Shown here: one piece after another, positions 4,174-51,110 of the stretch | Numbering within the stretch: the stretch's first letter is position 1 | How the letters are laid out: every line of letters starts with the position of its first letter | Assembly (NCBI GenBank): GCA_029834535.1 | Contig: JAQMWT010000238.1 | Span: 106,908-170,907 of the forward strand | DNA from: Chrysophaeum taylorii | Lineage: Eukaryota > Sar > Pelagophyceae > Pelagomonadales > Pelagomonadaceae | Direction of reading: 5' to 3' | DNA length: 64,000 nt | Translations under genes and position numbers: made by a program | The notes under the pieces: model-generated | The model's input: the letters and a program-made list of their open reading frames with translations, nothing else | What the model was told of the DNA's origin: nothing | Databases searched by the model: none

Positions 4174-6922
4174 ATGGCGGGTCTTCGTCGGACGACCGGG
4201 TTGACGAAGCGCAAGGTAAAGAGCGAGCGGCGGCGACGGCGATGGCAGGCGTTTTCGCGGCGGCGGCGGCGGGTCGCGGTCGAGGAGGGGCCGCACATCG
4301 CGACGCGGCTGATCCCTGTGTGCCTGAGGTTGCGGCGGAGTGAGGGCTGGTCCGCGCCTCCCGGCGTGAAGAAGCACATGATCTGCGTGTCGCTGAGCTT
4401 CTTCGACTGCGCGAGCCGGCGGTTCTTCGGCGGAACCTGGGTGAGCCGCATGGTCGAGCCAAAGGCGGAATTCGAGGAGTTGGCGTACTGGTGCACTCGG
4501 GTCGACGACCCGGCGTGCGTGCTGGTGGTGGAGCTCGTCGCCTGCGAGGTGGTCGAGGGGCGGTGCGCCGCGCAGTACGGGTGCGGCTGGACAATCCTCC
4601 GGTTATTTGGGGAGGGCAGCGACACGCGCGTCGACGCGGCGACGGACGACGAAAATACGAAAAAATTTATCGCGTGCGACGTTTTCGACGGAACTCCCCG
4701 ACGCCTCGCGACGGCCGCCGAGGCCTTGGGGGTGACGAGGTCGTTGCCAATGCCCTCGGCCCGGGAGCTCGCGGCCGCCGCCGGGAGCTCGCCCGCGTGT
4801 TCGATAGAGTATCGGCTGCGGCGGCACGACGAGCTAAGCCGCGTCGCTCATCTCCTCGCGGAAGACGAGGTCGTCGGGGCTAACGAAATGGTGCCCGGCC
4901 TCGCGACCGGCGTGCTCGGGCGGGTTGAGAGGCCCCCCAAGCTCGCGGCCTCGGTGGTCCTGGAGATCCGCGAGCTGCGCGTCAAGGTGCGCGACCGCGC
5001 GCGCCTCGAGCAGACGCTCGCGCGATACGCGGGATCCAAGATCGTCGCGCGGCGCGTCGCGGTCGGCCTCCACAACGGCCGCGCCCTCACGCTCCGGGAT
5101 CGGGCGGACGCCGTGGACGGCTGGAAGCGCATGGACTTGACGCGCGCCGATGGCGACGTGATGGCGATTTCTGAAGACGCGACGACAGAGCTTCCGGGTT
5201 TCGCTCGTCACCGGCTCGTCGCGCTCGTGGTCGCCCTCGAGTACGAGCTCGAGAGTGCGAAGAAGCGCGTCTTTCTCGGGGCCCAGGCCTACGTGCCCTT
5301 CGACGGCCGACGACTCAGGTTGCGGACGGGCAGGGATTTGAATTACGTCGAGCTAGAGTTAGAGCATCCTCGCGAAGATCTCGCCGCGGACGCTCTCGTC
5401 TTCCCGCCCCGCGACGCCGCGGGCGACGGCGACTTCGAGGGTCTCGAGGGAAAAAACAATTTGGGGCACAACACTCTCGTCGGCCTCCAGCTCCGGGCGC
5501 GCGATGGCGCCCGAAATCTCGACGACGAGACCCCCGACCGCGACTCGGACGACTCTTCTTCGGGCGACGACGAGTCTCCGTATCTCGACGACAATCTCGA
5601 GCCCGCCCCCAGCGAGGACAGCAGCGCCGTGGTGGATCCTTATCCAAGGAGACCGAGGCATCAATCTTCGACGACGAGGAGGAGGAGGGGTCAGCACAAT
5701 ATTCCCGCGGATGATGACGACTCGACGTCCACCTCGACGCCGCCGCCGCCCGAGCGGATCTCTCCTCCTCCTCCTCGTCGAGAAACAACAGAGACGATGA
5801 TGAGAGCCGGTCTCGGGAGCATCCGCCGCGAGACGGAGGAGAGGCTCTGGCCATCCCGGAGCTCGCTCCTCGCCCGCACGCTCGAGGCACCGATTCACCG
5901 CGCCGAGGGAGGCGGGGTCGTCGCGCCGAGATGCGACGACAACAACAACAACAACAAGGTTGTCGTCGTGGTCAAGAATACCGCGACGCCGTTGTCGCGG
6001 GCCGACCGCGCGAGGCTGTCGCGGCAGGGCGTCGCCAACGTCGACGAGACCCCGCACCCACAAAGCTACGATCTCAGTCTCGAGGCGACGGACCCCCTCG
6101 GACGCCACGAAATCACGATTCAGTTCGCGGCCCTTCGAAAGACGAGCGACGACGCACAGTTCCCGAGGTCCGTGTACTTCACCTACCAATTCTACACCCA
6201 CCCCCCCACGCGCACCGAGCGTCTCCGGGTGTTAAGGGGCGACGAATTGGTTGCACCGCTCGTCCGGTCTCGCGACGAGCCCGGCCTCGCGCTCAAGTAT
6301 GTCGTCGACACGACCAACGCTCGGCCCAACGAGGCCGAGCATTTGTTCGAGTACCTCGCTAAGAAGACCCTGCGCGTCGACGTCTGGGACGCCGAGAGCC
6401 GCCTCGGCCTCGGCCAGCTCAAAGTGCCCCTCGACGGACTCCTGCGCCAGCGAGCTCCGGTAGCCAAGGCCGCCCACGAGTATCCCGTCCTCCCGATCGA
6501 GGCTTCGGTGGACCAGCACCTCATCGACGGCGGATTGCGGACCGACCGCCTTGACTACCTCTACGTTCAGGTCGTCATGTGCAACTACGGCGAGCGCGGG
6601 CAGCGACGAGACGAAAAGGAGACCACCACGGTACAGGACGGCAAAGGAGACTACTCCGCGGACGACGACGACGACGACGACGACGACGTGTCCGGCTGGC
6701 GGAACAAGAGCCTCGACGCCGCCGAGCGCAGCAAGGCGATGTTGACGGCGCTCCAGGGCCGCGATAGCCACGGCCGACCACGGAACGACGCCGAAGCCCT
6801 GGGCGCCTTGGCCAAGGCACGCCAGCCCAAGCACCGCGTGAGGGCCAAGCCTCTGACGACGGCGTGCGAGACGTCGTCGACGCTGCTCGCGGCGTCGCGG
6901 AGGCCTGCCGTTTCCACTCCCG

Positions 6923-6953
<31 letters not shown>

Positions 6954-9900
6954 GGAGACGGCGGTGACGTACGACGAGGTGCAGCAGCTGGTCCGGCGGT
7001 TCCGCGACGAGCACGGGCGCGTCAAGTACAAGGGGCCACTCCTGGCGCTCCTGGAGGCGCCCGACGCGCGGGCGGTCGAAAGGCGGCTGATGCGCGTGGT
7101 GAAGCGCGCCGAGGAAAGCGGGACGCCACTCGAGCGCGTGTTCGGGTCGTTCGACACGAACCGCGACGGGACCGTGTCGCTCGCGGAGCTCGAGGAGGCG
7201 TTGCGGGGGCTCGGGTGCCCCGCCGGCGCGGCGGCCGGGCTGCTGCGGCGGTTCGACGCCGACGGCGACGGCCGCATCTCGCTAAAGGAGTTCGTGGCGC
7301 GCGTGAAGAGGGGGGAGCGGCAAAAGTCTTCTTCTTCCTCGCCGTCGTTGACGGCGTTCGAGGCACGCGTCAAGGCGATGCTCCTCAAGGCGGAGGAGCT
7401 CGGGGCGTCCGTGGTCGACGCGTTCCGGCAGTTCGACGCGGACGACGACGGGACGTTGACGGAGGCCGAGGTCGGCGCGGCCTTCCGGTCGCTCGACCAG
7501 AGGCTGTCGGCGTCGGAAGTGCGAAAACTCTTCAGGCACCTCGACAAGGACGGGAGCGGCGGCATCGAGGTCTCGGAGTTGCTCGCGTTCGCGGGCCGCG
7601 ACGCGACGGACCACCTCGAGATGAAGCTCCGGGTGCTCCTCCAAGCCGCGGAGCGCAAGGGGATCGCCGTGGCCGACGTGTTCGCGGCGTGGGATGCCGA
7701 CGGCTCGGGAACGCTCAGTCGCGTCGAGCTCGAGAGGGGACTCAAAGCGCTCTCTTCCACCAAAGGAGGAGGAGACCGCGAGAGCTTCGAGGCGTTGCTG
7801 AACCGGCTCGACGCCGACCGGTCGGGCGAGATCCAAGTCGAGGAGCTCTACGCGTTTGCAAAACTGGACTACGCTGCGTTTGTCGAGGCGCGGCTCCGGC
7901 AAATTCTGGTCGTCGCCGCGCGCGACTACGACGTGTCTCTGGACGCGGTTTTTCGCGAATGGGACTCGGACGGCTCGGGGACAATTTCGGCCGAAGAACT
8001 CGAGCGGGGATTGTTGTCGCTCAGGCCGTGGGGGCGCCTCGACGAGCGCGAGGTCGAGACGCTCCTCCGGCGCATCCACGTCACGACGCTCCGGGAATTC
8101 GTGGAATTCGCCGGCGGCGATTACTCGGCCCTCGTCGCCGAGCGGCTGCGGCGCGTGCTCGCGCGGGCCGAAACGAAGGGTACCTCTCTGGACGCGGCCT
8201 TCGCGCAGTGGGATGCCGACGACTCGGGGGAAATTTCGCGCTCGGAACTCGTGCAGGGCCTGCGCGCGCTCGGCTTCGACGACATTCTAGAAGAAGAAGA
8301 AGACGACGGCGGCGGCGTGATCGCCGAGAGGTACGCGCTCGGCGACCTCTACGCCTTCATGGGCCGCGACCCCGTGGTGGTGTTGGAAGCCAAGCTGCGG
8401 CGCGTGATCCACACCTCGGGGATCTCGGCGAGCGAGGCCTTCAAGCACTTCGACAAGAACGGCGACGGCGCGATCGCCGAGCCCGAGCTCGCCGCCGGGC
8501 TTCGAGAACTTCCCGGTTTCGACGGCGTCTCGGACGCCGAGGCCCGCAGCCTGGCGAGCTTGTTTGGAAAGGAGACCATCTCCGTGCAAGACTTCGAGAG
8601 GCAGGTCGGCACCAAGGCGACGGCCGACGCCGAGGCCGCCGCGCTCTCGTCGTTGAGGGAAGCGATGACGAGAGGAGGAGCCAAAAAAAAATTCGCGACG
8701 TTTCGGGGACTCGCGCGAGCGGTGAAACGGAGGTGTCCCGAGAATCTCGACGGCCTTACCCAGGTGTTCCGCGACGTGGGTGCCGAGCCGCCCGGGGACG
8801 AGGCAACCCTCGGGATTCTTAAGCTTCGATTCGAGAACTCGCCGAAAGCGTTTCTCGCGTTCTGCGAACGCGCCGGCGTCGCGACACCAAAGGAGATTGC
8901 CCAGTCGCGCGGCGAGCCCCAGCTCGAAGCGCCGTCGACTCCAGCGAGCGCCGCCCTCGCGCTCGACAAGCTACGGGGACTCGACGCCGACGCCTTCCGG
9001 GTTCTCGACGTCGACGGCAGCGGCGCGTTGAGCGCCGACGAGTTGCGCGAGGGGCTCGGCCTCACCAAGGCCGACGCCCGGCGCGTCGTCGAGGCCCTCG
9101 ACACCGATGGCAACGGCGCCGTCGACCTCGACGAGTTGCTGCGCTTCTCTTCGCCTCCTGACGATCCCTCTGAGAAAGTCGCCGCGAAGATTCGCCAAGT
9201 CCTCCGCCGAAAATTCTCCAATTCTTCTTCCTTTCGGGACTACTTAAATCAGCAGCACCGCGACGTCAATCTCGCGGCAGCCCTCGATGTTGCCACCGGC
9301 TTATTCCGCCACGTCTCGCGCGTCGACGTGGAAAAAGTGTTGCCCAGCACGCGAGAGGCCCTTTTCGATTTCCTCGACGGTAATAAATCATCATCATCAT
9401 CGATACGCCGCCTCGACGCGACCAAAGAGAAGCTCCGCGCGATCCTGCTCCGCGCCGAGGAGATGGGCACCTCGCTCGAGGAATGCTTCGGGACGCTCGA
9501 CGAAAACAAAGACGGCACCATCGCGGTGCCCGAATTGCGCCGCGGTCTCGAGCGTCTCGGCCTCGACTTCGACCAAGTTCGCGACCTCTGCGCTAGTTTT
9601 GACGGCCCCATCGATCTCCGCGAGTTCCTGCGCTTCGTGCGCGGCGAAGAAGAAGAAGACGAAGAAGAAGAAGAAGAAAAGGACGAGGAGCTAGTGCTGC
9701 CGCAGTACGAGTTCTCGCTCGACCCCGACGCGCGAGTCGTCGAGAAGAAGGTTCGACGAGCGGCGCGCCAACTCCAGGCTAGAGGCGTCGACGTGCGCGC
9801 GCTGCTCGCGCAATACGACCCCCAAGACGACGGCGCGATAGCGAGATCCGACTTCGTCCACGTCCTCATGCAGCTCGGCCTCTCGCTTCTCGAGGTCCAG

Positions 9901-11568
9901 CCCAAGATTCTTCTTGGAGACGAATGCTCGACGGTGCGAAGACGACAACTCGCGCAGCTCGCGAGGGTCAGGCGCGGTGGTGCCGCCGCGGCGCCGAGAC
10001 CTCTCGTCGCGCCTCCCCTCGATTACGGCAACAACAACAACGACGACGAACTGGCTCTGGTCAAGTGGTACCGCGAGGGCGCGAAACGCGACATGGTCAA
10101 GTCGATGCTGAGGAAGGCGATGGTTACGACGGTCACGATTCACCCGAGTTTCGGCGAGACTGCGTGGTTCGAGCACGCGGTCACGAATCCGCTCGACCAC
10201 GCCGAGCGCGTGCTCATCGAGATCGAGACCGACGTCGTCCTGAGTCAAGGCACGCTACGGGTTATCACGTCCTCCGAAGAGTGGGCCCGCTTGCGCCGAC
10301 TAAGATCCCCCGCGTGCGGCGACGTCGGCCGAAAAAATATCGAGCCAGACATGATCGACGCGACGGGCGAGGTGCCCAACATCATGCTCATGCCCGCGGA
10401 GACCGTTCGCGTGCCCTTCGCATTCCTGCTCCTCGAGCCACCCACGCCCGACGCGAGGTTCGGCCGCGACGACAAACCCTTCGGATCCGCGACCGCGCGC
10501 TTCGTTTCCGCCGCGGGCTTCGCGGTGTCCGTGCTTCGCGTCGAGACTCGCGTCCATCCGTGCGTCGTCGACCGCACGCTCCGGTTCTACCAGCCCGAGG
10601 GCGAGATCCTCAAGAGAGCTATAAGGGTTGCCGCGCCCCCCAGAGCAGCGCGACGCCGCCACCACCACCGCCGCGGAATGCTCGAGGCGGCGATCGGGCC
10701 GCAAATCATCGACGAAGAAGAAAACGGCGACGACCTGTTCGTGCACTGCGTCGCGCGAGGCGACACGACCGACGTCTCCGTCACGTGGCGCGCTCTGGAT
10801 CACGGCGGCGGCCACGAGGTGCTCGTAAAGTGCGACGGCGTCGCGCGCTTTCCCGCCGTCGGCGAGTTTTACGTTTTGTTGTTTCGAGACAGGTTCTGCG
10901 CGCGGCTCGCCGAGCTCTGGCACTGCGTCGTTCACTCTCGCTTGCGCGCCGACGCCAACGGCCTCGCCGGCCAGTCGATGGGCGTCGACCTCGTCGTCAA
11001 CGGCGACGCGGCACCGCGCACCGTCCGGGCGTACTGCGGCGACGCGACGGGCGGACCTCTCGAGGCTTTCACGACCTTCGACCCGCCGACCCATTTCCGC
11101 CTCGTGCCGCGCGCTCACAACAAGTTCGCCGTCCATTACCGCCCGACTATTCCGGGATCTGCCAAACTCCACGTCCACCTCGTCGACGTCGACACCAGAG
11201 ACCTCGTCGCCGCCTGGCTCCTGACGGCCGTCGCCGCCTCGCCCGCCATCACGAAAACCTACGACGTCGAGCTCCCCCTCGACAGACCCGCCACCAAGCG
11301 CATCCCCTACCGCAACCCCTGGAATAAACCCAAGGCCCTCGCGCTCGTCTCGTCCGACCCTGCCCTCGTCCGACCCCGCGTCCATCCCGCCGTCCACATT
11401 CCGCCCAACGGCCTCGAATACCTCCGCCTCTACTTCGCCCCCATCACCCGCCCGGGCCTCGTCCAGGCCTTCCTCTACCTCAACGACGCACAAACTGACC
11501 AGTCGGAGGCCGTCTTCCTCCTCCGCCTCCTCGCCTCCTCGAGGCAACAACAACCGTGCGATGCCTAG
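4174..11568 (+). CDS. NPHP4: Nephrocystin-4 with inserted EF-hand array
   Basis: Intronless frame of 2,464 codons; ATG 4174 follows an in-frame TGA at 4141. The N-terminus matches nephrocystin-4: LSFFDCASRRFFGGTW (about residues 73-88), GCGWTILRLFG, then RVAVGLHNG. A second conserved block lies near residues 630-790 (YFTYQFYTHPP, LRVDVWDAESRLG). The C-terminus from about residue 1960 also matches (VTIHPSFGETAWFEHAV, LHVHLVDVDTRDLVAAWLL, final FLYLNDAQTDQSEAVF). Between these blocks, after Asp and Gln runs (about 830 and 918), sit twelve canonical EF-hand loops and one near-canonical loop, from DTNRDGTVSLAE (about 993) to DPQDDGAIARSD (about 1882), with decayed ones between. Human NPHP4 is about 1,426 residues, so the insert accounts for the extra length. 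NPHP4 works at the ciliary transition zone with NPHP1 and RPGRIP1L. Calcium binding by this version is inferred from the loops. Confidence 0.93.

Positions 11569-24823: not shown

Positions 24824-24913
<90 letters not shown>
24824..24913. repeat. (TTA)30 microsatellite
   Basis: Thirty uninterrupted TTA units directly against the GGGATCC terminus of MULE copy A. The same trinucleotide sits at the A/B junction and beyond the right end of copy B. Confidence 0.97.
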
Positions 24914-28389: not shown

Positions 28390-28612
28390 ATGTGTGTGAT
28401 CAAACTTGTAATGTTCTGACCAAACTTTGTGACAAAACTTGTGACTGTATGACCAAACGTGTGACTTTATGACCAAACTTTTGACTTGGTGACCAAACTT
28501 GTGACTTAATGATCAAACTTATAATCGTGTGATCAAACTTTGTGATTAAACTTGTAGCTTTCTGATCAAACTCTTTTGGTTTCGTGACCACACTTGAAAA
28601 TCGTAGCTTAGT
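28390..28612. repeat. Array of TGACCAAACTTGTGACTT units
   Basis: About eleven degenerate copies of a 17-20 bp unit (TGACCAAACTT plus a GTGACTT-like spacer) in tandem. They lie between the N-terminal transposase region and the splice acceptor of the core (CATTCTCTTAG, ending 28680), so probably within an intron. The core word is the same as in the subterminal zones of both MULEs. Confidence 0.85.
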
Positions 28613-38210: not shown

Positions 38211-38525
38211 TGTGGCGGCAACTCCCACCTCCTAAGGCTTACCCCTCATTTAGCCACCCCCCCTTATCAGGGGCATCCTACTCCGATCTGATGATGTCAG
38301 TTTTCTCTATGACATCATCTTCCCTGATTTCTGTGATTCAAGTGTTCTTAATCATAAAGCAACAGCCGATCCTCAAGTTGTGAGGACCAGGCACGGAAGT
38401 TGTTTGTGGTTGTGTGGCGAGAGAACGGCCTTCCTCGTCCAGTGACTCCATCAAGGGCACGGACGCGAGCGGCGAGCCTAGATTCGAAGGTGCGCCAGGT
38501 AGGCATAATTTCTCCTAACGCCACA
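38211..38525 (+). repeat. 5' LTR of the Gypsy element
   Basis: 315 bp, TGTGGCG...CGCCACA, with perfect 7-bp inverted termini. It aligns with 47629-47971 over its length. Shared landmarks include CTCCTAAGGCTTACCCCT, GATGATGTCAGTTTTCTCTA and AAGTTGTGAGGACCAGG. The pair differs in a C-run length and a ~25-bp indel near the middle. Confidence 0.93.
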
Positions 38526-39048
38526 GGTGGCGGAGGAATACGAGATTCGAGCGACAATATCGGTCGCAGCGGACGAGTGCATCTTGCGTTCTCTACACGG
38601 TCCGGGAGAGCCGTGCGCGCCCTGATCAAGCGCGCCGACGAAGAGTTCAAGAACAGACGGGCGCATTCGACGTGGCCGATCGCAGACGCCACGTAAGAGG
38701 GACCATCGCCGTGGGAAAGTCCCCCGACCGGATACGTTAGTCGTCGGAGGTGACGACGCGCGAATCGGCTCGAGCCGACGCGCAACCCGGGTGCCGCTGC
38801 CGCAGGCGAGCGGAGTGAGATCGCAACTCACTGAGGCATTGATTGCCGGGCAGAGACGAATTCTGCCGCCCACCGGAACTGATAAATCTGTCGGTGGAAG
38901 ACGCACGCGGCGACGATATTACGCGTGTCGTAGACGAGTAGAAGTCCCAGAGTCGAAGGAACACGAGAACGACGACGACTCAACCATTCGGGACCCGTTC
39001 TGATTTTGGCCGACTGATTTTGGCCGATTAGAGCGAGCCGGAGCCGAT

Positions 39049-39638
39049 ATGGAGGAAGATGATGCTGCTGACGAGCAGATACGAGAACCTGAACCTTCAA
39101 GTCGTCCCGAGGGGACGAACGAACGGCATGATATTGACGATGATGATACTGATGATGATGATGAGGAAGAAGAGCTGAACTACAGCGGCGATGAACCGCC
39201 GAGGGCGCCGCCGGCGAGACAACCCGCAGCCCATCCATAACGTGTGCGAGATGATGAACCACCGAACGTTGCAGAGATTTACGAAGCCTATTTACACGAA
39301 ATACGCCGAGAAAATAAGCGCGCACAAGAGATCCTCATCGAGCTGATAGAAGAAGAGAAGATGCGGCGTGAATGGCTACACCAGAAGAAGATAGAAATAA
39401 TGCAAGAGCAACTGCGGACGAACACGCTCGATTAGATGAGATACACGAGCGATTAGATGAGATACACGAGCAAGTACGATGGTTGACCCGCGAGAGGGAT
39501 GAATTGCGTACGCCGAGTCGCTCGAGGCGAACGAGCAGTCTTGAGGGAGAATTCCGACCCTCAGAGGAACCGCCGCCTAGCGAACGCGCGCGAAAGTTAG
39601 GACGACGCGCGACGACGACGACGAGTCGTCCGAGATGA
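39049..39638 (+). pseudogene. Gypsy gag N-terminal remnants
   Basis: An acidic frame from ATG 39049 (DIDDDDTDDDDEEEELNYSG) stops at TAA 39238. The same frame resumes as a charged coiled coil (HEIRRENKRAQEILIELIEE) to 39435. A second frame, 39372-39638, holds a heptad-like repeat (LDEIHERLDEIHEQV) and a basic tail. These fit a decayed gag start; no CCHC knuckle is seen. Confidence 0.5.
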
Positions 39639-41386
39639 CCGAAACGTCGTTAAACTACGAGCAAGAGCAATCCAAGTCGAAGGAGCTCACCCAAACCAAA
39701 ATCCCCACAGAATCGGAGAATCTGACCGAAACGTCGTTAAACTACGGGCCGAAGCCAACAACCGCTTCTGACCCGGTGTCACCGTTGGTGGCACGATATG
39801 ATTTGTCGTCAGCTGACACAACCCTTGGTTTTGACGACGCGCCGGAGTTATGTTTGAATCCGATTTACGAGCCCCGTGCAGCCGATGACGCCCAAAGTAA
39901 TGGACCCGCCGCTGCTACGCTCGATGCTATGAGTCTACCTCCGGACATTCAAGTGGACGACACTTCGTCTCCACGATCGATCGACGATGCGTCGCAGAGG
40001 ATTATCTCGAATGATAAGCGCGCACATGTTTGCACGCCCATCGAACGTCACGTGCCCTTTGGTGGCCATTTCTTGACAGATATGACGTCGGGGACGACGC
40101 CTTCTTCTTTTGCAGGGCCCCCCGACGAACCGATTGCAGACGTTTTTGCAGACGTTTTTGCAGATGTTTTGTTCTTTTTGACGATGGCAGACATTTCGTG
40201 TGCCGACATTTTTAGTGACGAGGCGATTGCCGATATTCGAAGCGATGGAGTGGATGATAGGCTGAGTGAAACGGCCGAGAAAATGGATACGAAGGCGGAA
40301 GAGGTGAAGAACCTTATAACGCATGAACCGCCTTTGGAGCTCTGCGAAAGCCCCGGCGTATTACTCACGAACGAAGAGTCGAGCGATGAACTCGAAGCTC
40401 CGCGATACTGGGAGGGCGATTCGGACTCGGAAGACGAAGAAGCTACACCTTGTGAACCAGTGTCCGCGATTACGTTACTTGACGAGTCGTCCACGGACGA
40501 CCCACCGTTTGTTTTTGACGAGGAAGCCCTTGACGCTATCGGCTTATCTTTGGACCCTCCAGAGACGACCTTTGGCGACCCGACTGGCTGTGAGCCAGAC
40601 ATGGATTTCTGCAGCGATGGCACGGATGATCACTCGACGGATGAGACGATGACCATCGCGAGTGATGCAGACGACGATCTTACGTTTGAGTTGACGTCGG
40701 GGACGACGCCATCTCTTCCTGCCGACCCCCCCGAAACGGTTTCGGTTACGACGGATCGAGCCATGGATACTCCGCCGGAAAAAAAGGATACGAAATCGCA
40801 TAATGCGTCGGACGAGAAGCTACGTGCACGGTCCGAAGACGAAAGGGGCGCTTCTCCAATTGAGCAATGCCTGGAAGTGTCACCGCCAAGAGAAGAGAGC
40901 AGTGACGGCGTTGCCGGAGTCGAGCCGAACCCGACCGAAGAAGATGGATGTAAGAAGAAGATTAGCAGCGTTCTCGATTGGGGCGAAGATGAGCCGACGT
41001 GGAACCTGCAGGATTGGTCGACGAGAACTCGGAACTTCTTGCTAAAGAAGCCACCAGAACCGCCGCTCAGCTACGGAAGCGAAGCCGCAGCCGACACGGA
41101 ACCGATCGGCACCGACTGTGACGATCAACCGAAGACGAATGAATCTACGGATGCATTATGGAAAGGCGAAAAGAACGAGTTATGGGAGAGGTCCTTTGCT
41201 TCCGAGAACGCCAAAGACCGGGATCCCCTACCAGCATTGATTCCCTCCGAGATTGTCATGGAGGAAGAGCGGAAGCCACCAGATAAAGAGGCTGCCGTGA
41301 ACGCCGCGTCGATGACGCCGACGATAGATGATACGAGAGCTCAAGCCACGGTGTCGATGCCCAACCCCGGCGACGAGCGAGTCTGA
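39635..41386 (+). CDS. Acidic gag-like region of the Gypsy element
   Basis: 583 codons, very acidic and low in structure, with repeats such as ETSLNY (twice), MTSGTTPSSFAGPP / LTSGTTPSLPADPP, and IADVFADVFADV. No CCHC zinc knuckle and no clear capsid fold by eye. Its frame is the same as that of the protease, methyltransferase, RT and integrase; the TGA at 41384-41386 ends it just before the protease. It may be a gag product or an element-specific accessory region. Function is unknown. Confidence 0.55.
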   Translation: MTETSLNYEQEQSKSKELTQTKIPTESENLTETSLNYGPKPTTASDPVSPLVARYDLSSADTTLGFDDAPELCLNPIYEPRAADDAQSNGPAAATLDAMSLPPDIQVDDTSSPRSIDDASQRIISNDKRAHVCTPIERHVPFGGHFLTDMTSGTTPSSFAGPPDEPIADVFADVFADVLFFLTMADISCADIFSDEAIADIRSDGVDDRLSETAEKMDTKAEEVKNLITHEPPLELCESPGVLLTNEESSDELEAPRYWEGDSDSEDEEATPCEPVSAITLLDESSTDDPPFVFDEEALDAIGLSLDPPETTFGDPTGCEPDMDFCSDGTDDHSTDETMTIASDADDDLTFELTSGTTPSLPADPPETVSVTTDRAMDTPPEKKDTKSHNASDEKLRARSEDERGASPIEQCLEVSPPREESSDGVAGVEPNPTEEDGCKKKISSVLDWGEDEPTWNLQDWSTRTRNFLLKKPPEPPLSYGSEAAADTEPIGTDCDDQPKTNESTDALWKGEKNELWERSFASENAKDRDPLPALIPSEIVMEEERKPPDKEAAVNAASMTPTIDDTRAQATVSMPNPGDERV

Positions 41387-43942
41387 GCCCAATGTTCTCA
41401 CACTTCGCTGACGCCGCGAGATGGCAAAACTATCGAAGATGATTTGGTTACCCTCAGTTGTTTGGATACGGGTACTCTTACGTTTATGGCCTGTCACATC
41501 TACAGGAATCGTGACGGACCGAAATTCTCGACGGCCATCGGTGTCGATGGAATGGCAGATGTTTCATAAATTTGCCGGGAAATAGTCAGAAAGTTGGCCA
41601 AAGACAAGTTGATTTTTGATGAAGGCGGGCTTCCGATTATGCGCAAGCTGTACGGATCGGGGTTGAATACGACGACGATCTATCGCTGGATCGCGATTCG
41701 GGTCGCTCTCGCCGACGACTTCGCTGCCCCCATTGTCGCTATTGTGGCCGACACCAACTATCTGTTCCTGTTGGGAGGGCGCGATATCCGAGTTTTAGGA
41801 GCCGTCGTGGACTACCCCCACGATCGGATCTGCTTTTATCGACCCCATGTCGTCTACGGACGCAAGAAGATTAAAGTCAAGGGTGAACAAGTCGATGCAC
41901 CCATTGTGACCTTTCGATCTGTTTACGATCGAGACCCGAAAACCGTGCCGATTTACAATCATCAGCACGACGCCATTCGGCAGAGTTTCGACCTGGTCAA
42001 GACTCGAGTCTACGCTCGTTTGAGCACGATTAAAGATCTCCGCAATCCGCCGCCGGAACGAGCGGTAGCCTTGGCGACGCGGGGACATTCTACGACCAAA
42101 TTCTCCCCAGCTCCGGCAGAAGCCGCGCGGGAAGTAGTTGCTTACGCTGCGCGCACGCTTCAAATCGAGCCCGGTCGAACTTACAATTTACCGGTTATTT
42201 TGTCGAAGCCTATGGAAAAAGGACAGGTTTTCGTCGCTACGTTTGCTGAAAACGAGCAGCTGGGAGTTGTCGAAGGGATGTGTTCTTCTTGCGAAGAGCA
42301 CGACAGGTCAGCTGCTCGCGTGGCGGTTACTTCCGCGGAAGAAGTGCCAACGGTCATCACTCAAGGCGAGGTTCTCGCAATTGGCGACATCGTTCGGTAC
42401 GAAGATGAGTTGAACGTTTCTACGATCAACGAGCTTACGAAAGAATGTGAAGAAGGATACAACAAGGGAAGCCTTTCTTTCACCGTTTCCGTCGCTAGTC
42501 ACTTGACGCACTGCGACGAATCTCCCCCGCCGATGTTGCTGAGCACGGCGCAGAAGGAAGCTACAGCCGCTGCTGTGGACGAGTCCTCCCTCAAACGACC
42601 CAAGCGAGACGACGATTTCGCTCGACGGTCTGAAGAAGATGAAAAGAAGTGCCGCGTGATCACCGAAGCAGAGATCCGCCGCCGATACGAAAAGGTTCAA
42701 TGGCTTCCAATCACTTATCGCAAGGTGGTGATGCTGTTCAGTGGAGCCGGAGGCAGCACTTTAGGTCTCCAACGAGCCAACGAAATGTGTGGGACGTCGT
42801 TTCGAGTCGTGTTAGCGCTCGATGCGTCGGACACCGCCATCAAGATCCACCACAAGAACTTTCCGAATATTCCTGTGGTGCAGCACACACTGTGTGGTCG
42901 CTATGTTACAACCTTACGTTTGATCGAATCTTATTTACCTTACGCGGGATGGTCGTCGTCGATGTGTATCGCGTCGCCACCCTGCGTCCACTCCGCTCTG
43001 TGCAACTTGACTTCCAGAGATGTTGGGAAGGGAGCCGCTACCCACTGGACGATGAAACTGTGCAAGATGGCTGGTTTCTTCATGTGGTTGATAGAGCAGG
43101 AGGCCTCTATTATTTCTTACATTGCGCGCTTGCACCCTTACGTGTACGTCGTCAATTTTTACGACATAACGCCCAGCTTGATGAGCTGTCGCGTGCGGTT
43201 GTTGGTTTCCAGCCATCCACTCCATTTGCGCGCAGCTCCCAAGACTTGCAAGAATATGCAACAAGAGTTCGCCGCTGCGCTTGGCTACGCCGACGAACGA
43301 CATTTACTTCAGATGAACAATTTAGGATCATCACGAACCGAGACAGACGCAGCTTATACCGTTACGCGTGTCCCGCTTCGTGTAGGACCGCACCGTTCCG
43401 ATTACAGATCTCTGAATCTGAAAGTGACTTCGGAGTTGCTGACGATGCCTCTTGATTTTGATTGGGCCGGCTTCTCCAAGACGACCTCGTTGAAACACTT
43501 GGCGTCCGTCGTGCCACCAGACACGATGGCCTTATTAGTACTCGATCTGCACAACTCTGTGACCAAGGATTTTCACTTGAGCGGCGAGGCCTTGCCATCC
43601 GCGTTGAGTCCTGCAGACCGACCGTTTGATTATTATTTGCAAATCGACGAAACCACCCTTCGTCACGTACAAGTTCCGCTGTTAAACACGCGCACACGTG
43701 CCGTAAGATGGGTGTGGACTGATGATCTCCAAGATCGCACCAAATGGAAACCTCCCGAGGTGCCGTTAATTCCGCCTGCAACAGATGAGCCGGGGACGTC
43801 TCATGCTTCTACTGCTGCCCCCCCCCGACAACCAAATTTGGACGTTCCGCCAGATCCTGAGCGAGATCGGGAACCGAAGATCAAGAGCGAGCCGAGTGTT
43901 CGTGTCAAAGGCGAAAGGATCAACAAAGCCACCCGGAAGTGA
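41387..43942 (+). CDS. Retrotransposon protease plus DNA cytosine-5-methyltransferase-like domain
   Basis: The frame continues in phase from gag. The aspartic protease active site is in LSCLDTGTLTFMA (DTG at 41465-41473), and the protease C-terminal block is YLFLLGGRDIRVLGAVVDY (about 41759-41815). A TAA at 41567-41569 breaks it. After a linker comes a methyltransferase-like fold: motif I VMLFSGAGGSTLGLQ (42728-42772), motif II VLALDASD (about 42815), motif IV CIASPPC with the catalytic Cys codon at 42983-42985, an Arg-x-Arg block CRVRLLV (43187-43207) and a late LTMPLDFDW (about 43437). The usual ENV of motif VI is not evident (EQEAS sits nearby), so activity is uncertain. A C5-MTase transfers a methyl group from AdoMet to cytosine in DNA. 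Stop TGA at 43940-43942, followed by CTA. Confidence 0.85.
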
Positions 43943-45082
43943 CTAAAATATGAGAAGAAATTCGATGTGCCATGGAAAGATGCGCCGCGCGATGCTGATT
44001 GTGCACCGCTGCCGCAAATTCCCGAGCATGTCAAGGGTAACGAAGCGATGAAAGTGAAAATTCCTGCGAAGGAAGAAGTCGACAAGGTTGTTGAGGAGCT
44101 TGGAATTCCTGACAATCCGCACTTAGATGACGATGCGAAACTGATGCTCCGTCACTGTGTGCAATACTCCTGGGCCTTTTTCGACCCGATTATGAGACCT
44201 GTGGACTCGCCTCCTGTGTCTCTACGATTCAAAGACGCGAATCCGCGACCGATTAAGATGACGCCCTACCGATTGACGCCTGCGAAGCTCGATTGCCTCC
44301 GCAAGCAGACCAGCGAGTGGTGCCGGGTTGGAGTCATTCGTCCGACCAACTCACCTTGGGGCTTTCCTGTGTTGATGCTTCCGAAGAAAGGAGCTGAGAT
44401 TGGAACGTCAAACGCGTTCCGTGCTGCAGTTGACTTACGTCAGCTCAACGATCAATTGGTCAATGACAGTTGGCCGAACATTTGGCAAGATGATGCTTTA
44501 GCTTTTCTCGCTATGCGACGATGGCGGGCATGCATTGATATTAGATGGGGATACCACAACCTTCGTCTGGATCCGGCAGCGCAAGACGCTGTCACGATGG
44601 TTAGTCCACTTGGTGCTCATAGTTTCTTGCGATTACCTCTAGGTGTGAAGACGGCCGGAGCTCTTTTCTGCAAGCAAATGGCGAGCGACCTTTCGAAATG
44701 GATGTATCGAGACTTGGTTGCGTTTGTTGACGATATTATGATGGGATCCAACGATCTTCATCGACATTTACAAGTTATGATCGAAGTGACGTGTCATTTG
44801 GCACAGAGAGGGTACAGCGGTCGAACCGCGAAGTTCCACCTTCTCGAGGATGATATAGAATTTCTGGGACACATTTCGACCCCAGACGGCTTAAAGCCGA
44901 ATCCGAAGACGCTGGAAGCACTGCAGAAGATGCCGATTCCAGGTACTTTACCGAATACTTCTCCGAAGACCCAGATACGCTCTTTCATCGGCATGAGTAA
45001 CTACTGCCGGCAATATGTGAAGGGCGACTCGAAGATCGTGGAACCGCTGAGACGGTTATGTCTCGAAGGCGTGAAGTTCTAG
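43943..45082 (+). CDS. Gypsy reverse transcriptase
   Basis: In phase with the preceding segment; first Met at 43967. RT blocks seen: MTPYRLTPAKLDCLRKQ, GVIRPTNSPWGFPVLMLPKK, FRAAVDLRQLND, then the palm motif AFVDDIMMGS with the catalytic Asp pair at 44729-44734, and FHLLEDDIEFLGH. The thumb/connection IRSFIGMSNYCRQYV follows. The frame ends at TAG 45080-45082, directly before the WTPEC block that normally continues the protein, so this stop probably replaced a sense codon. RT copies the element RNA into DNA. Confidence 0.93.
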   Translation, partial: LKYEKKFDVPWKDAPRDADCAPLPQIPEHVKGNEAMKVKIPAKEEVDKVVEELGIPDNPHLDDDAKLMLRHCVQYSWAFFDPIMRPVDSPPVSLRFKDANPRPIKMTPYRLTPAKLDCLRKQTSEWCRVGVIRPTNSPWGFPVLMLPKKGAEIGTSNAFRAAVDLRQLNDQLVNDSWPNIWQDDALAFLAMRRWRACIDIRWGYHNLRLDPAAQDAVTMVSPLGAHSFLRLPLGVKTAGALFCKQMASDLSKWMYRDLVAFVDDIMMGSNDLHRHLQVMIEVTCHLAQRGYSGRTAKFHLLEDDIEFLGHISTPDGLKPNPKTLEALQKMPIPGTLPNTSPKTQIRSFIGMSNYCRQYVKGDSKIVEPLRRLCLEGVKF

Positions 45083-46726
45083 TGGACACCCGAGTGTCAG
45101 ATAGCTTGGGATACGATTATCGAAGCTTTGGTTGATCCCAGAGGAGTTTACCACCCCGATTATGATCTGCCTTTTCAGATCCGATCCGATGCTTCCAAGG
45201 ATGGACTTGGAGCATATTTCTCCCAGATTGTCGAAGTTAAGGACGATGCCGGGAGAGTGACTCGAGAAGAACGAGTGATTGAATATTGGAGCCGAGCCGT
45301 GCCGAAGGAGATGCGCAATTATGAGCCCCGTCGGTTAGAGCTGCTGGCAGTTATACTTTCTCTAGAGCACTTTCGAGCCTACATCGAAGGGCACCGGACT
45401 GCTTTTGAGACCGATCACCGAAATTTGACGTTTTTACGTAAGGCGACGCACTCATCTGGGCAGCTTGCTCGTTGGGCGATGCGCCTCGCCAATTTTGACC
45501 CTGAACTTGGTTACAAGCCGGGAAAGTCACCGGGAATGAGTATCCCTGACTGTCTCTCCCGCAATCCGATAGATCATGTCATCGAGACTGACGAGTTTGG
45601 AGAACCTTTGAACCACGCTTATTTGGTGTTCCAAGAGCTTCCCCGACCTGTTGATGACCAAGGAATTCCCGCCTCCGGCTGCCACTTCATAATGTCGTTT
45701 GTTACGACCGAACTGCCGGAAGACGAGGAAGAAGATCCTGAAAAGGATCCGATAAAATTGGCTACGTCTCATGCTACGAGACAACGTCGGAAGAACCGTG
45801 CGCGCGATGAGACACAGGTCTTCAAGGACGCAGCCGCTTACAAAGATTTTATCGATAAGATACCTGATAATATAACGCTCGCTGAGATCGCACGTGAGCA
45901 AGAATCTGATGCTACTTGCGAGGATATTCGCTACCGAATGGCCCAAGGTCAGAAGCCGCGACGTTCCCGAGCGAACGAACGATACGAAGTCGTTAAAGAC
46001 GATCTTTACCGCATTTCTGCTGATTTGCACCCGATGATTGTTGCACCTGCTACGTTGCGCAAGCGCATTATTCGACTCTACCATGACACTCCGGTTAACG
46101 GTGGTCATATGGGACGTCACAGTACTGTCCAGGCTATCCAAGAACGATTTTGGTGGCCCCACATGTCGAACGAAGTTGGAGTCTTCATTGCTGAATGTTT
46201 AGTTTGCAAGAAAGCTCGTACGCCTGAGCCGAAACGAGCTGGACTCTTGCAACAGCCCGTCCACGATGGTGATGGCGCTGTTCTCTGCATGGATTTATTT
46301 GAACGCTTGCCCAGCGCTGGTCCCGAGACGTATCTTCTAATATTTTTTGATCCGTTCTCGCATTTCTTGATTCTGGATGTTTTGAACGATAAGACTGCTG
46401 AGTCCGTCCTCGAGTCTTTTGTCATTAACATCCTCCTCAAGGGCTACTTGCCCCAGATGATTCGTACCGACAACGGTAAAGAGTTCGTGAACAAGTTGAT
46501 GCGCGAGTTTCGCCATCTCTTCAACACACGATACCAACTACGATTCCTTGTCATGCCCAGTCGAACCCGGCTGAGCGCGTTAACCGACTTATCAAGGCCT
46601 TCCTCCGTGCTTGCCTTCAGGGCCGGAACATCACGGATTGGCCCGACTTTGCCCATTATATTGCGTTTTGTTACAACCGCAAGTTTATTCCAGGCACACA
46701 GACATCTCCCTTTATGCTGCGCCTGA
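45083..46726 (+). CDS. Gypsy RNase H and integrase core
   Basis: Still in the same frame. RNase H: FQIRSDASKDGLGAYFSQ, YEPRRLELLAVILSLEHF, FETDHRNLTFL and the end PDCLSRNP, with the Asp-Glu-Asp residues present. Integrase: HHCC zinc domain (HDTPVNGGHMG, CLVCKKA, about 46083-46220), catalytic Asp in CMDLFERL (about 46290) and in IRTDNGKEFVN (about 46470). Near 46553 a frameshift moves the reading frame before the third catalytic residue; the remaining frame to 46726 is spurious. Integrase inserts the DNA copy into the genome. Confidence 0.9.
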   Translation, partial: WTPECQIAWDTIIEALVDPRGVYHPDYDLPFQIRSDASKDGLGAYFSQIVEVKDDAGRVTREERVIEYWSRAVPKEMRNYEPRRLELLAVILSLEHFRAYIEGHRTAFETDHRNLTFLRKATHSSGQLARWAMRLANFDPELGYKPGKSPGMSIPDCLSRNPIDHVIETDEFGEPLNHAYLVFQELPRPVDDQGIPASGCHFIMSFVTTELPEDEEEDPEKDPIKLATSHATRQRRKNRARDETQVFKDAAAYKDFIDKIPDNITLAEIAREQESDATCEDIRYRMAQGQKPRRSRANERYEVVKDDLYRISADLHPMIVAPATLRKRIIRLYHDTPVNGGHMGRHSTVQAIQERFWWPHMSNEVGVFIAECLVCKKARTPEPKRAGLLQQPVHDGDGAVLCMDLFERLPSAGPETYLLIFFDPFSHFLILDVLNDKTAESVLESFVINILLKGYLPQMIRTDNGKEFVNKLMREFRHLFNTRYQLRFLVMPSRTRLSALTDLSRPSSVLAFRAGTSRIGPTLPIILRFVTTASLFQAHRHLPLCCA

Positions 46727-47582
46727 ACCGTCAGCCGATGCTGCCTACTGAGTACACGCTTATGGACTTTGATACGCGATTGTTGCCGAAGACTCGCTCT
46801 GATGCAGTCGCCGAAACTCGTGAACGATTGAAGTAGTATACGAAGATCGTGCGCGAAGCTCGTGATAAAGCTTTGAAGAAACAACGACTGGCTTACAATG
46901 CTGATCATTTGATGTTGAATATAAGGAAGGATCGCACGTTTTGCTCTATATTCCTTTCCTTCAGAACAAACTTCGACCGGAATGGCGCGGCCCGTTTATT
47001 ATCAAGGAACGCCTTTCCCCGGTCACCTATAGGATTGAGTCTCTCGACTCGCCGCCCGAAGAACGACGTGTTCATGTTAGTCCGATCACGCCTGTGATGG
47101 TACCTCCGATCGTTGATCAAACCATCCGCAAACCCGAAGAAACCTTCCGTGATGATTATCAGCACGGTAAGTTTGTTGTTTTCCGGATTCCTGACCGGAA
47201 GCGCTCTGATTGGCGCAAGAAGATTTATGTTGCCGAAGTTTACGAGCCGTACGATTACCAGAATGATCGTGTTGCTCTACATTTCTATTCTGATTTGGGT
47301 CCGAACGATGATGTCGCTTATTTCAAGCCGACCTCTCACCTTTCGCACCGCAAGCTCAAACCCGAGTTCAAGGACATTGAATGTCGCAGTTTCACCGACA
47401 AGTCCAGAATCTCATCCAACACAACTCCTTGTGTCACGGATTTCGCTCCGCACGAGGTCGATGTGTTGATCCCCAAGTTTACTTTACGCAGTGGCCGAGT
47501 TCCTGAACCGGTCATCACCCGCGTTTACCAAAAGATTCGTTCACGAGATGATCGTAAGGCGAAGCCGCGCTCCTCGCGCTAG
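46554..47582 (+). pseudogene. Integrase C-terminal part and tail domain
   Basis: After the frameshift, CHAQSNPAERVNRLIKAF (about 46552-46605) restores the block with the catalytic Glu. A TAG at 46834-46836 and another frame change near 46920 follow. Then KEGSHVLLYIPFLQNKLRPE and WRGPFIIKERLSPVTYRIE (about 46935-47035) give the GPY/F-type module. The last segment to TAG 47580-47582 contains GKFVVFRIPDR, KKIYVAEVYEP and VALHFYSDLG, a possible small beta-barrel reader, not a classical chromodomain. The frame breaks mean this copy cannot make full integrase. Confidence 0.75.
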
Positions 47583-47628
47583 CACCTCGCTGGGGCAGCT
47601 CGAATTTTAATTCTTACCAGGGGAGTCC

Positions 47629-47971
47629 TGTGGCGGCAACTCCCGCCTCCTAAGGCTTACCCCTCTTTAGCCCCCCCCCCCCCCCCCTTATCAGGGGCAC
47701 CCTACTCCGTCATGATGATGTCAGTTTTCTCTATGACATCATCTCCTTTTTCCGTGACATGTGTCACCCTGATTTCTGTATTTCGATAATATCTTAATCA
47801 TAAAGCAACAGCCGATCCTCAAGTTGTGAGGACCAGGTACGGAAGTTGTTTGTGGTTGTGTGGCGGGAGAGCGGCCATCCTCGTCCAGTGACTCCATCAA
47901 GGGCACGGACGCGAGCGGCGAGCCAGGATTCGAAGGCACGCCAGGTAGGCCTAAATTCTCCTTACGCCACA
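47629..47971 (+). repeat. 3' LTR of the Gypsy element
   Basis: 343 bp starting TGTGGCGGCAAC and ending CGCCACA. A purine-rich stretch (AGGGGAG, within 47619-47625) just upstream is a plausible polypurine tract. Compared with the 5' LTR it has a longer C-run and an extra segment with CCGTGACATGTGTCACC, which is itself palindromic. Confidence 0.93.
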
Positions 47972-49538: not shown

Positions 49539-49668
49539 GCAAACTTGTGACAAATTTTTGTTTTACCGCAGGCGGTTTCCTCGGCTTTCAAGGAACAATA
49601 CAAGCAAACTTGTGACAAATTTTTGTTTTACCGCAGGCGGTTTCCTCGGCTTTCGGGGAACAATACAA
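49539..49668. repeat. 65-bp tandem duplication upstream of the secreted-protein gene
   Basis: 49539-49603 and 49604-49668 are two copies starting GCAAACTTGTGACAAATTTT and differing at about two bases (TTTCAAGG versus TTTCGGGG). It ends 65 bp before the ATG at 49734, so it lies in the promoter or 5' leader. Confidence 0.95.
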
Positions 49669-49733
49669 GCTTTGACATCGAACTCTAAAGGAAGGAAACC
49701 CAACACGATCCTGGAATCTCGCCATAACAAAAG

Positions 49734-51110
49734 ATGATGTTTGTCGCGATGTTGAGCGTGGCGTCCGCGCTGCGGCGCGAGGAGATCGAGGTCGAAACCA
49801 TCATGAAGGGGCTCGCACTCATCCAGGACGACGAGGAGCATCGCGAGCTGTTGTACACGAGAGAGAACGTGTCGAGCGAGCTGATGACCACGGGGTCCTC
49901 CCTCGTGCAGACCGACGACGACCCGTTGTGCTTTGGGTCGAACTATTCGGGGACGATCGTTCCAACGACTTACACGTTCACTGGCGATTGCACGGGGTCC
50001 CGGTTGAGGAGCGCGATGTTCTCGAAGTGCCGGTACCTCTTTCCCGACATCTCGTACCTCGACGAGCTATGTGCGGCCGCCAAGCTCGCGACCGACTACG
50101 CGAACGGCCGCGACCTCGAGTACCTCCTGGGGATGAGCTCGCAAGATCTCATGCTTCACTTCGACGGCCACGGGAACTACAACGTTCGCACGGAGGAGAC
50201 TTTGACGGGCAAACACGACCTGACTGCGGAGACCGACTTTATGGAGGACGTGATGACTCATTTCGCCGAACCAGGTGGCCACATCTTTTGGCCAACGCAG
50301 CACCAGATGAATTCCGGCACCGCGGGAGTGACGTACCCTCAGTTCGAGTGCGACGCGACCAAGTGCGAAAACGGATGCTGCAGCAGCTGCGAAGATGGGT
50401 ACTCGCCGATCGCGATCAACGGCACTTCGTGCGGCTCGGGCCCAAAGTACGAGTGCTGCAAGCCACCGGCGATCGAGGATCTTTCGTATCCGTCTTGCGA
50501 GTTGAACGCGGTGATGTGCTGCTTTTCGCGCGACCGCTCGGCGAACAACAATCAGGGCTCGTGCAGGGAACCCTACGATACTAGATGTTTTGACGAGGAC
50601 CCCGCCGACAACACTGACCTCTGCCACGTCAACTTCACGCGCGGTGCGGCCTCCTCGCATCTCCGGGGAGGTATGGCCTATTTCGACGGCGATATCGAGG
50701 GACCCACCCATTGCCACGGCACGGCGTGGTCCGACGATGTTCTACACTCCAGCCACCGCTACTTGGGGACCAATCTTTTCTACATCGCCTTCTACGACCA
50801 CCTCCGCGAACGCGGCTACGTCCAGAACATCCCGGGCGCGCCCATGTGTGGCTGTATCGAGGAAATGCCCACCGTCTCGCGTTCCGACTGCACCGAGATC
50901 GTCCTCACGGAGTCCTGGGAGTTCGTTATTCGCAACGACGCCTTCCACCGCCTCCGCCGCACCGACGCCGATGTCAGATTTATCTCCTGCCGCGGCGTCA
51001 ATGGCACCCGGAACGACCTTGAGTCCTACTTTCTAACGGACACCATCGCCGGTCTCGAGGGTGAAGACGCCATCCGTCCCTACCTCGCTAGCACCTGCCC
51101 CAATCTCTAA
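49734..51110 (+). CDS. Secreted cysteine-rich protein of unknown function
   Basis: 458 codons from ATG 49734. A short hydrophobic start (MMFVAMLSVASAL) looks like a signal peptide, followed by a charged pro-region. The mature part has many cysteines in pairs (CENGCCSSCEDGY, YECCKPP, AVMCCFSRDRSANNNQGSC) and N-glycosylation sites (NYSG, NGTS, NFTR, NGTR). Later comes MAYFDGDIEGPTHCHGTAWS. No membrane segment or GPI signal is evident. I recall similar secreted proteins in marine microalgae, with unknown function. An AATAAA (51145-51150) about 35 bp after the stop may be the polyadenylation signal. The 65-bp duplication lies in its upstream region. Confidence 0.8.
   Translation: MMFVAMLSVASALRREEIEVETIMKGLALIQDDEEHRELLYTRENVSSELMTTGSSLVQTDDDPLCFGSNYSGTIVPTTYTFTGDCTGSRLRSAMFSKCRYLFPDISYLDELCAAAKLATDYANGRDLEYLLGMSSQDLMLHFDGHGNYNVRTEETLTGKHDLTAETDFMEDVMTHFAEPGGHIFWPTQHQMNSGTAGVTYPQFECDATKCENGCCSSCEDGYSPIAINGTSCGSGPKYECCKPPAIEDLSYPSCELNAVMCCFSRDRSANNNQGSCREPYDTRCFDEDPADNTDLCHVNFTRGAASSHLRGGMAYFDGDIEGPTHCHGTAWSDDVLHSSHRYLGTNLFYIAFYDHLRERGYVQNIPGAPMCGCIEEMPTVSRSDCTEIVLTESWEFVIRNDAFHRLRRTDADVRFISCRGVNGTRNDLESYFLTDTIAGLEGEDAIRPYLASTCPNL

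Follow-up and report, generated by a model that had tools for sequence, protein, structure and literature searches.

A Ty3/Gypsy LTR retrotransposon family of the ochrophyte Chrysophaeum taylorii carries, between the protease and the reverse transcriptase (RT) of its Pol polyprotein, a domain that motifs, profile matches and alignment predict to be a C5-cytosine methyltransferase (MTase), divergent in sequence yet complete. The anatomy of this arrangement and the fixation of the MTase in the element are close to certain. The explanation that best accounts for the whole, and that we place slightly on the probable side, is that the MTase is a lasting part of Pol which would methylate the element's own cDNA, with a transient benefit for the element.

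The family was identified from the window, the whole stretch of 64,000 nucleotides that was analysed (positions 106908-170907 of contig C238), within a surveyed genome assembly of 70.8 Mb and 697 contigs. The copy in the window, 9.8 kb in length, is old and broken and belongs to a Ty3/Gypsy LTR retrotransposon of high copy number. Its features, with the evidence used for each, are as follows:

38211..47971, + strand: whole but broken Ty3/Gypsy LTR retrotransposon copy (LTR pair and Pol domains)
38211..38525, + strand: 5' LTR, TGTGGCGGCAAC...CGCCACA (pairwise comparison with the 3' LTR)
38528..38550, + strand: candidate primer binding site, starting with TGG, 2 bases past the 5' LTR (sequence)
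39635..41386, + strand: ORF1, in the Gag position, without Pfam match (related stretches in relatives)
41465..41788, + strand: presumed protease, from DTG (41465-41473) to LLGGRDI (41768-41788), with a stop inside at 41567 (motifs)
41789..42610, + strand: linker region from protease to MTase, without Pfam match (translation, Pfam scan)
42725..43530, + strand: predicted C5-cytosine methyltransferase domain (motifs, HMM matches, alignment)
42737-42754, + strand: MTase motif I, FSGAGG (translation)
42815-42829, + strand: MTase motif II, ALDAS (translation)
42974-42985, + strand: MTase motif IV, SPPC, with the Cys codon at 42983-42985 (translation)
43088-43099, + strand: MTase motif VI, LIEQ (translation, alignment)
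43187-43201, + strand: MTase motif VIII, CRVRL (translation)
43418-43450, + strand: MTase motif IX (alignment)
43493-43519, + strand: MTase motif X (alignment)
43940..43942, + strand: stop codon between MTase and RT in the window copy (translation)
43967..45082, + strand: reverse transcriptase PF00078, FVDD at 44723-44734 (Pfam)
45128..46726, + strand: RNase H, integrase zinc-binding and integrase core domains, PF17917, PF17921 and PF00665 (Pfam)
46941..47582, + strand: integrase C-terminal part PF22938, in another frame (Pfam)
47629..47971, + strand: 3' LTR (pairing with the 5' LTR)

The two LTRs are direct repeats with TG..CA ends and share 91.1% identity over 315 aligned bases with 28 gap columns (K2P 0.095), indicating that the insertion is not recent; no matching target-site duplication was found in the flanks of this copy. 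The stretch from DTG to LLGGRDI, which has no Pfam match, is taken to be the protease on the basis of its motifs. Together with the LTR pair, the Pol order protease - RT - RNase H - integrase places the element in Ty3/Gypsy, and the same order was obtained by Pfam in an unbroken relative, the protease being assigned by motif only. The last ~63 residues of the RNase H-integrase ORF align in a different frame in six relatives (L021, L022, L024, L027, L028 and L029), which places a frame break near the end of this ORF in the window copy. A preliminary description of this DNA had put protease, MTase and RT in one frame. The three do share a frame, but 41387-43942 is not one open frame, since it is interrupted by the stop at 41567 and ends in the stop at 43940, and FVDD lies in the next ORF.

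Several other features were recorded in the window and in the genome. PTHB1 domains, which we take to be of the BBS9 type, are encoded at 154-1437 (+) and suggest a flagellated or ciliated host cell, and an intron-free ORF of 2464 aa with many EF-hands occupies 4174-11568 (+). A perfect TTA x30 microsatellite (24824-24913) and a tandem array of 20-bp period (28424-28549) lie where GC is lower than in the window's first 20 kb. At 49539-49670 a 65-bp unit occurs twice (97% alike), just 5' of a 458-aa ORF (49734-51110) for which no Pfam match was obtained at E<=0.01. Genome-wide, the light-harvesting domain PF00504 gave 84 matches; the one light-harvesting protein tested had its best PDB matches among fucoxanthin-chlorophyll proteins, first 7vd6, presumably a diatom entry (E 7.8e-80, 270.6 bits), the best peridinin-type match reaching 103.9 bits. 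These matches suggest a photosynthetic ochrophyte as host.

The preliminary description had named the motifs DTG, FSGAGG, ALDAS, SPPC and CRVRL and a catalytic Cys at 42983, and translation and coordinates bear out every one of them. The C5-MTase motifs I, IV, VI, VIII, IX and X were found in order and at canonical spacing, with deviations: Val replaces Gln after the catalytic Cys (PCV for PCQ), EQE stands for ENV, and AS for GN in motif X. In a MAFFT alignment, the Gypsy motifs I, II, IV, VI, VIII, IX and X fall beneath their counterparts in reference MTases. The distance from Cys to Glu is 38 residues in 11 of the 17 aligned Gypsy copies and 37 in one, the window copy, while five have a changed residue or pattern and could not be measured; of the 11 reference MTases that allowed the measurement, 8 likewise have 38 residues. 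The real sequence has the motif IV-VI-VIII arrangement (Cys - Glu - Arg-x-Arg) at canonical spacing, 3' of motif I, and none of 200,000 shuffles has it, with a pattern that was written after viewing the sequence.

Profile searches gave matches of differing strength. The Pfam profile PF00145 (DNA_methylase, cut-off 22 bits) matched the MTase stretch of the window with E=7.7e-6 and 26.0 bits and the whole window ORF with 23.6 bits, and fell below cut-off in longer frames (18.4 bits in the 3063-aa frame of L021, 19.2 in L030). It matched all 17 aligned Gypsy copies at E<=0.1 (best 3.1e-6), covering chiefly motifs I-II, and NCBIfam dcm matched 16 of the 17 at the same threshold, far under its own cut-off. 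With a home-made HMM whose 12 references were ten annotated phage C5-MTases, the host DNMT2 and the host DNMT5, 17/17 Gypsy copies outscored every one of 600 shuffles, but the weakest copy did so barely (7.8 bits vs 7.6 for the best shuffle). A single-sequence AlphaFold2 model of the domain had a mean pLDDT of 33. The claim that a C5-MTase lies between protease and RT of a Gypsy Pol thus came through the HMM searches, in which C5-MTase similarity was detected with both PF00145 and dcm, and it is supported by the motifs and by the other copies.

Searching the genome with the window MTase and with one divergent copy as queries located the Gypsy MTase in at least 143 distinct places on 125 contigs, among the matches listed, which form subfamilies A (window-like) and B (~75% identical to A). 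The segment is therefore not the one-off insertion that the preliminary description had considered. In all ten Gypsy copies read at ~10 kb, the MTase lies directly 5' of the RT; among these ten, no match was obtained to the protease query in L024, to the ORF1 query in L030 or to the RNase H-integrase query in L023. Two Gypsy copies outside the window retain unbroken Gag-Pol frames, of 3063 and 3067 aa.

Out of 110 listed RT copies, 57 had an MTase listed just upstream and 53 had none, and a subfamily of Gypsy elements free of MTase was suspected from this count. The one copy read among the 53 (C122) does carry an MTase, frame-shifted, in DNA that is 97.7% identical to L021 over 706 aligned bases. 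Moreover, when listed protease rows were paired with listed RT copies (101 of 132 rows, giving 50 pairs), the gap between protease and RT was 1477-1521 bp (~1.48 kb) in 46 of the 50 pairs and 454, 1332, 1365 and 1848 bp in the others. On the evidence of this one copy and these 50 pairs, the MTase-free subfamily was rejected; loss of the segment occurs, as in the one pair with the 454-bp gap, but is rare among the pairs listed. The same data bear on the idea that the segment is a one-off insertion, a chimaera or a chance similarity. The modest Pfam match, chiefly over motifs I-II, and the 53 RT copies without a listed MTase could be read in that way, but the number of places, the constant gap, the frame-shifted MTase of C122 and the purifying selection described next make it a negligible prospect.

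Selection was estimated by Nei-Gojobori dN/dS between subfamilies A and B, where dS is near saturation and the ratios are consequently rough: dN/dS was 0.087 for the MTase (dN 0.157, dS 1.81, 72 pairs), 0.029 for the RT (8 pairs) and 0.148 for the protease-linker stretch (9 pairs). By these ratios, purifying selection acts on the Gypsy MTase between subfamilies. Within subfamilies the MTase gave 0.22 (A) and 0.28 (B) and the RT 0.19 (A), as expected for a mixture with neutral decay. Along the MTase, dN was lowest in motifs I-VIII (0.084), followed by the stretch VIII-IX (0.129), the C-terminal tail (0.174), IX-X (0.230) and the N-terminal linker (0.311), indicating that the core is best kept and that the IX-X part is under less constraint than the core. 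The catalytic Cys is kept in 15 of the 17 aligned copies, the losses including L049, with a PLC-type change upstream of it, and L054, with Arg in its place; R231 and R233 are invariant in all 17. This conservation, together with the low dN of the catalytic core, weighs against a domain that has lost catalysis and is retained in Pol for its structure or for binding nucleic acids, a reading for which the departures of motifs IV, VI and X from the common pattern and the missing CpG footprint (see below) would speak, and which we regard as unlikely. The Gypsy MTase is, in our judgement, probably an active enzyme.

A footprint of methylation was looked for as an excess of CpG transitions in four sets of copies, all of them small. 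None was found in Gypsy A (8 copies, L023 and L026 being left out; 30/4453 CpG vs 78/9448 other C/G sites, p 0.41), in Gypsy B (8 copies, p 0.28) or in two sets of the Ty1/Copia elements described below (p 1 with 5 copies, p 0.58 with 4). The observed/expected CpG ratio was 1.31 in the coding stretch of the window copy; other Gypsy copies gave 1.19-1.35, and host stretches 1.3-1.5. These results speak against simple self-silencing and against resident copies having been heavily methylated at CpG over long periods, and suggest that methylation, if there is any, is transient, falls in another context or is rarely mutagenic here. They also bear on an action of the MTase chiefly in trans, on host DNA, by which host methylation would be shifted to the advantage of the element. 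Such an action would suit the high copy number and is discussed for Symbiodinium in a passage of PMC5890265; with element copies free of a CpG footprint, and the host side looked at by observed/expected CpG, we judge it improbable.

A genome-wide PF00145 search, in which 123 of 474 candidates were scored, returned 57 hits, the Gypsy family of the window not being among them. These hits, at least 57 in number, comprised one DNMT2, one DNMT5, 48 that overlap the list of a second element-borne MTase, four more with the same LPCQ stretch (L005, L013, L015 and L016) and three that were not read. The second MTase belongs to Ty1/Copia elements. Among the matches listed it occupies at least 115 places, spread over 94 contigs, and two of the elements have PF00145 and RVT_2 in one frame:

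L032, 3097-8952, + strand: Ty1/Copia MTase element (PF00145 and RVT_2 in one frame)
L033, 704-6307, - strand: Ty1/Copia MTase element (PF00145 and RVT_2 in one frame)

In the 1952-aa frame of L032, PF00145 covers residues 349-475, rve 1016-1110 (a weak match, E 0.006, below cut-off) and RVT_2 1686-1933; in L033, PF00145 covers 355-492 and RVT_2 1686-1848, rve not being listed. The MTase thus lies upstream of integrase and RVT_2, and RVT_2 follows the integrase, with the MTase in the same frame, as in Ty1/Copia. In L032 it begins ~230 residues after a DGGAS motif, which is taken as protease-like from its sequence. Its motifs include TLPCQHLS, ENV and a motif VIII of the KTRY type. All 11 aligned Copia copies are matched by PF00145 and stand clearly above shuffles with the reference HMM (30.6 bits or more), and dN/dS over 36 pairs was 0.14. 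The Gypsy and Copia MTases did not resemble each other significantly in profile comparison (E 0.07, probability 0.8%), and a shared origin of the two was neither supported nor rejected in the tree (AU p 0.34). Dissimilar MTases in two LTR superfamilies, both 3' of the protease, look like repeated capture at one site. As a separate observation, the coding stretches of four Copia elements (L032, L033, L036 and L037) have observed/expected CpG near 1.0 and TpG/CpA of 1.12-1.19, the CpG ratio of Gypsy copies and host being ~1.2-1.5.

The two host MTases are DNMT2 (L040), with best PDB match 1g55, and DNMT5 (L031, 3468-9725, +), an intron-free single frame of 2086 aa with MTase and SNF2 domains that matches PDB 7r76, which we take to be Cryptococcus Dnmt5. 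Both are single host genes outside elements, unlike the Gypsy MTase; DNMT5 shares with it the Val after the catalytic Cys, and DNMT2 the SPPC. No significant similarity to the host genes was obtained for the Gypsy MTase by hhalign, the E values of 0.004 for DNMT2 and 0.26 for DNMT5 both being weak, and in a profile search of the PDB, DNMT2 appeared at a non-significant E of 0.86-0.93. The best tree, which was built without a DNMT3 row, joins the Gypsy MTase with DNMT2 at a support of 54/27, a placement prone to long-branch effects. In tree tests, none of the groupings Gypsy with DNMT5 (p 0.27), Copia with DNMT5 (p 0.26) and Copia with DNMT2 (p 0.33) was rejected, and an origin from host DNMT2 or DNMT5 is neither supported nor rejected by the tree. 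The FSGAGG and SPPCV of the Gypsy MTase are unlike the usual DNMT3 pattern. For a viral or prokaryotic source, motif patterns gave 18 and 87 hits in viral contigs and 17 and 130 in genome contigs, among which no relative was confirmed. A protein search of the 8000 candidates sharing most words with each of three queries gave none that passed. Both kinds of search rely on short exact words, by which distant relatives can be missed.

DNMT2 is a tRNA enzyme, and the outside resemblances of the Gypsy domain (hhalign, PDB search, SPPC and tree) all point to DNMT2. A domain acting as an RNA methyltransferase on the genomic RNA of the element or on its tRNA primer, as DNMT2 does on tRNA, would fit them. 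These signals are all weak and prone to long-branch effects, and DNMT5 is not rejected as a relative, so that we hold an RNA substrate to be unlikely, if a shade less so than loss of catalysis. As for methylation of DNA, the element's own cDNA has in our estimate an even chance of being the main substrate.

Retrotransposons that have captured C5-MTases have a precedent, as the preliminary description had pointed out: passages of PMC5890265 report them in LINE and DIRS elements of Symbiodinium and in a Gypsy element of the charophyte Klebsormidium nitens. The latter, KnitGypsy-Dnmt3, resembles the present element in having an MTase inside the Gypsy Pol polyprotein, several copies and purifying selection (Ka/Ks < 0.2 there; PMC5890265), and a C5-MTase within the Gypsy Pol frame, multiple copies and purifying selection were likewise found here. 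It differs, in the same passages, by an MTase of the DNMT3 clade, where the tree used here had no DNMT3 row, by repeats described as DIRS-like in place of ordinary direct LTRs with TG..CA ends, and by a charophyte host with several copies in place of an ochrophyte with at least 143 places (PMC5890265). SymbioDIRS-Dnmt3 and SymbioLINE-Dnmt offer the parallel of two kinds of retroelement with C5-MTases at high copy number in one genome, and the orphan clade formed by the SymbioLINE MTases is a further likeness; the carriers are DIRS and LINE elements there and LTR elements, Gypsy and Copia, here, and the Symbiodinium Copia elements are described in that part of the paper as without DNMT (PMC5890265). 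DIRS elements with a Dam-like adenine methyltransferase share the retroelement-borne DNA methyltransferase, but the base is another and the enzyme structurally unrelated (PMC5890265).

As to the lineage, which the preliminary description had thought possibly new, this stands for the variant but not for the kind. A Gypsy Pol with an MTase is already published (PMC5890265), and a passage of PMC6338049 lists Stramenopiles as one of the groups in which Gypsy and DIRS elements encode Dam and Dcm, the two enzymes being treated together, so that the lineage may not be wholly new. For streptophytes and dinoflagellates, a passage of PMC12344493 names 'LTR Copia and DIRS', with reference to the 2018 paper PMC5890265, where the element is called Gypsy. 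In titles and abstract openings of the open-licence literature, no report was found of a genome whose Gypsy elements and Copia elements both carry C5-MTases. What is new is thus that Gypsy and Copia elements of one genome carry MTases that match nothing in word-limited searches; the kind itself is known.

The MTase lies beside RT and integrase, has persisted and is under selection, all of which suggests that it takes part in the replication of the element. In the mechanism that we favour, the MTase would be made as part of the Gypsy Pol, would travel together with RT and integrase and would methylate cytosines of the newly made cDNA. The gain, transient and before or at integration, could lie in a cDNA that resembles host DNA, in shielding, or in shaping the chromatin of the new insertion. 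Methylation of cDNA has been proposed for DIRS elements, and de novo CG methylation in yeast is shown for two SymbioDIRS MTases in passages of PMC5890265, where the SymbioLINE and KnitGypsy MTases had no activity in yeast, a result that its authors call inconclusive.

A wider possibility concerns the host. C. neoformans is without de novo methylation and its marks are kept by DNMT5, as stated in a passage of PMC10538959, and DNMT5a is present in diatoms, pelagophytes and others according to part of PMC9998398. In C. taylorii the recognised host MTases are DNMT5 and DNMT2 only, among the 123 of 474 PF00145 candidates scored, the other classified hits being Copia MTases, to which the Gypsy family adds its at least 143 places. 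This raises the speculative and rather doubtful idea that the host may leave de novo cytosine methylation to retrotransposons, the element MTases of two superfamilies writing marks that DNMT5 would keep. If true, parasites would seed the host epigenome through the MTases that they encode.

Taken together, a C5-MTase kept by retroelements under long selection suggests that an element can itself benefit from cytosine methylation, which is usually regarded only as a means of silencing elements; here, the elements may apply the mark themselves. The presence of dissimilar MTases in two superfamilies makes methylation of the cDNA, its sequence context and its upkeep by the host DNMT5 testable, and a genome of 70.8 Mb in which unbroken copies exist would lend itself well to such work.
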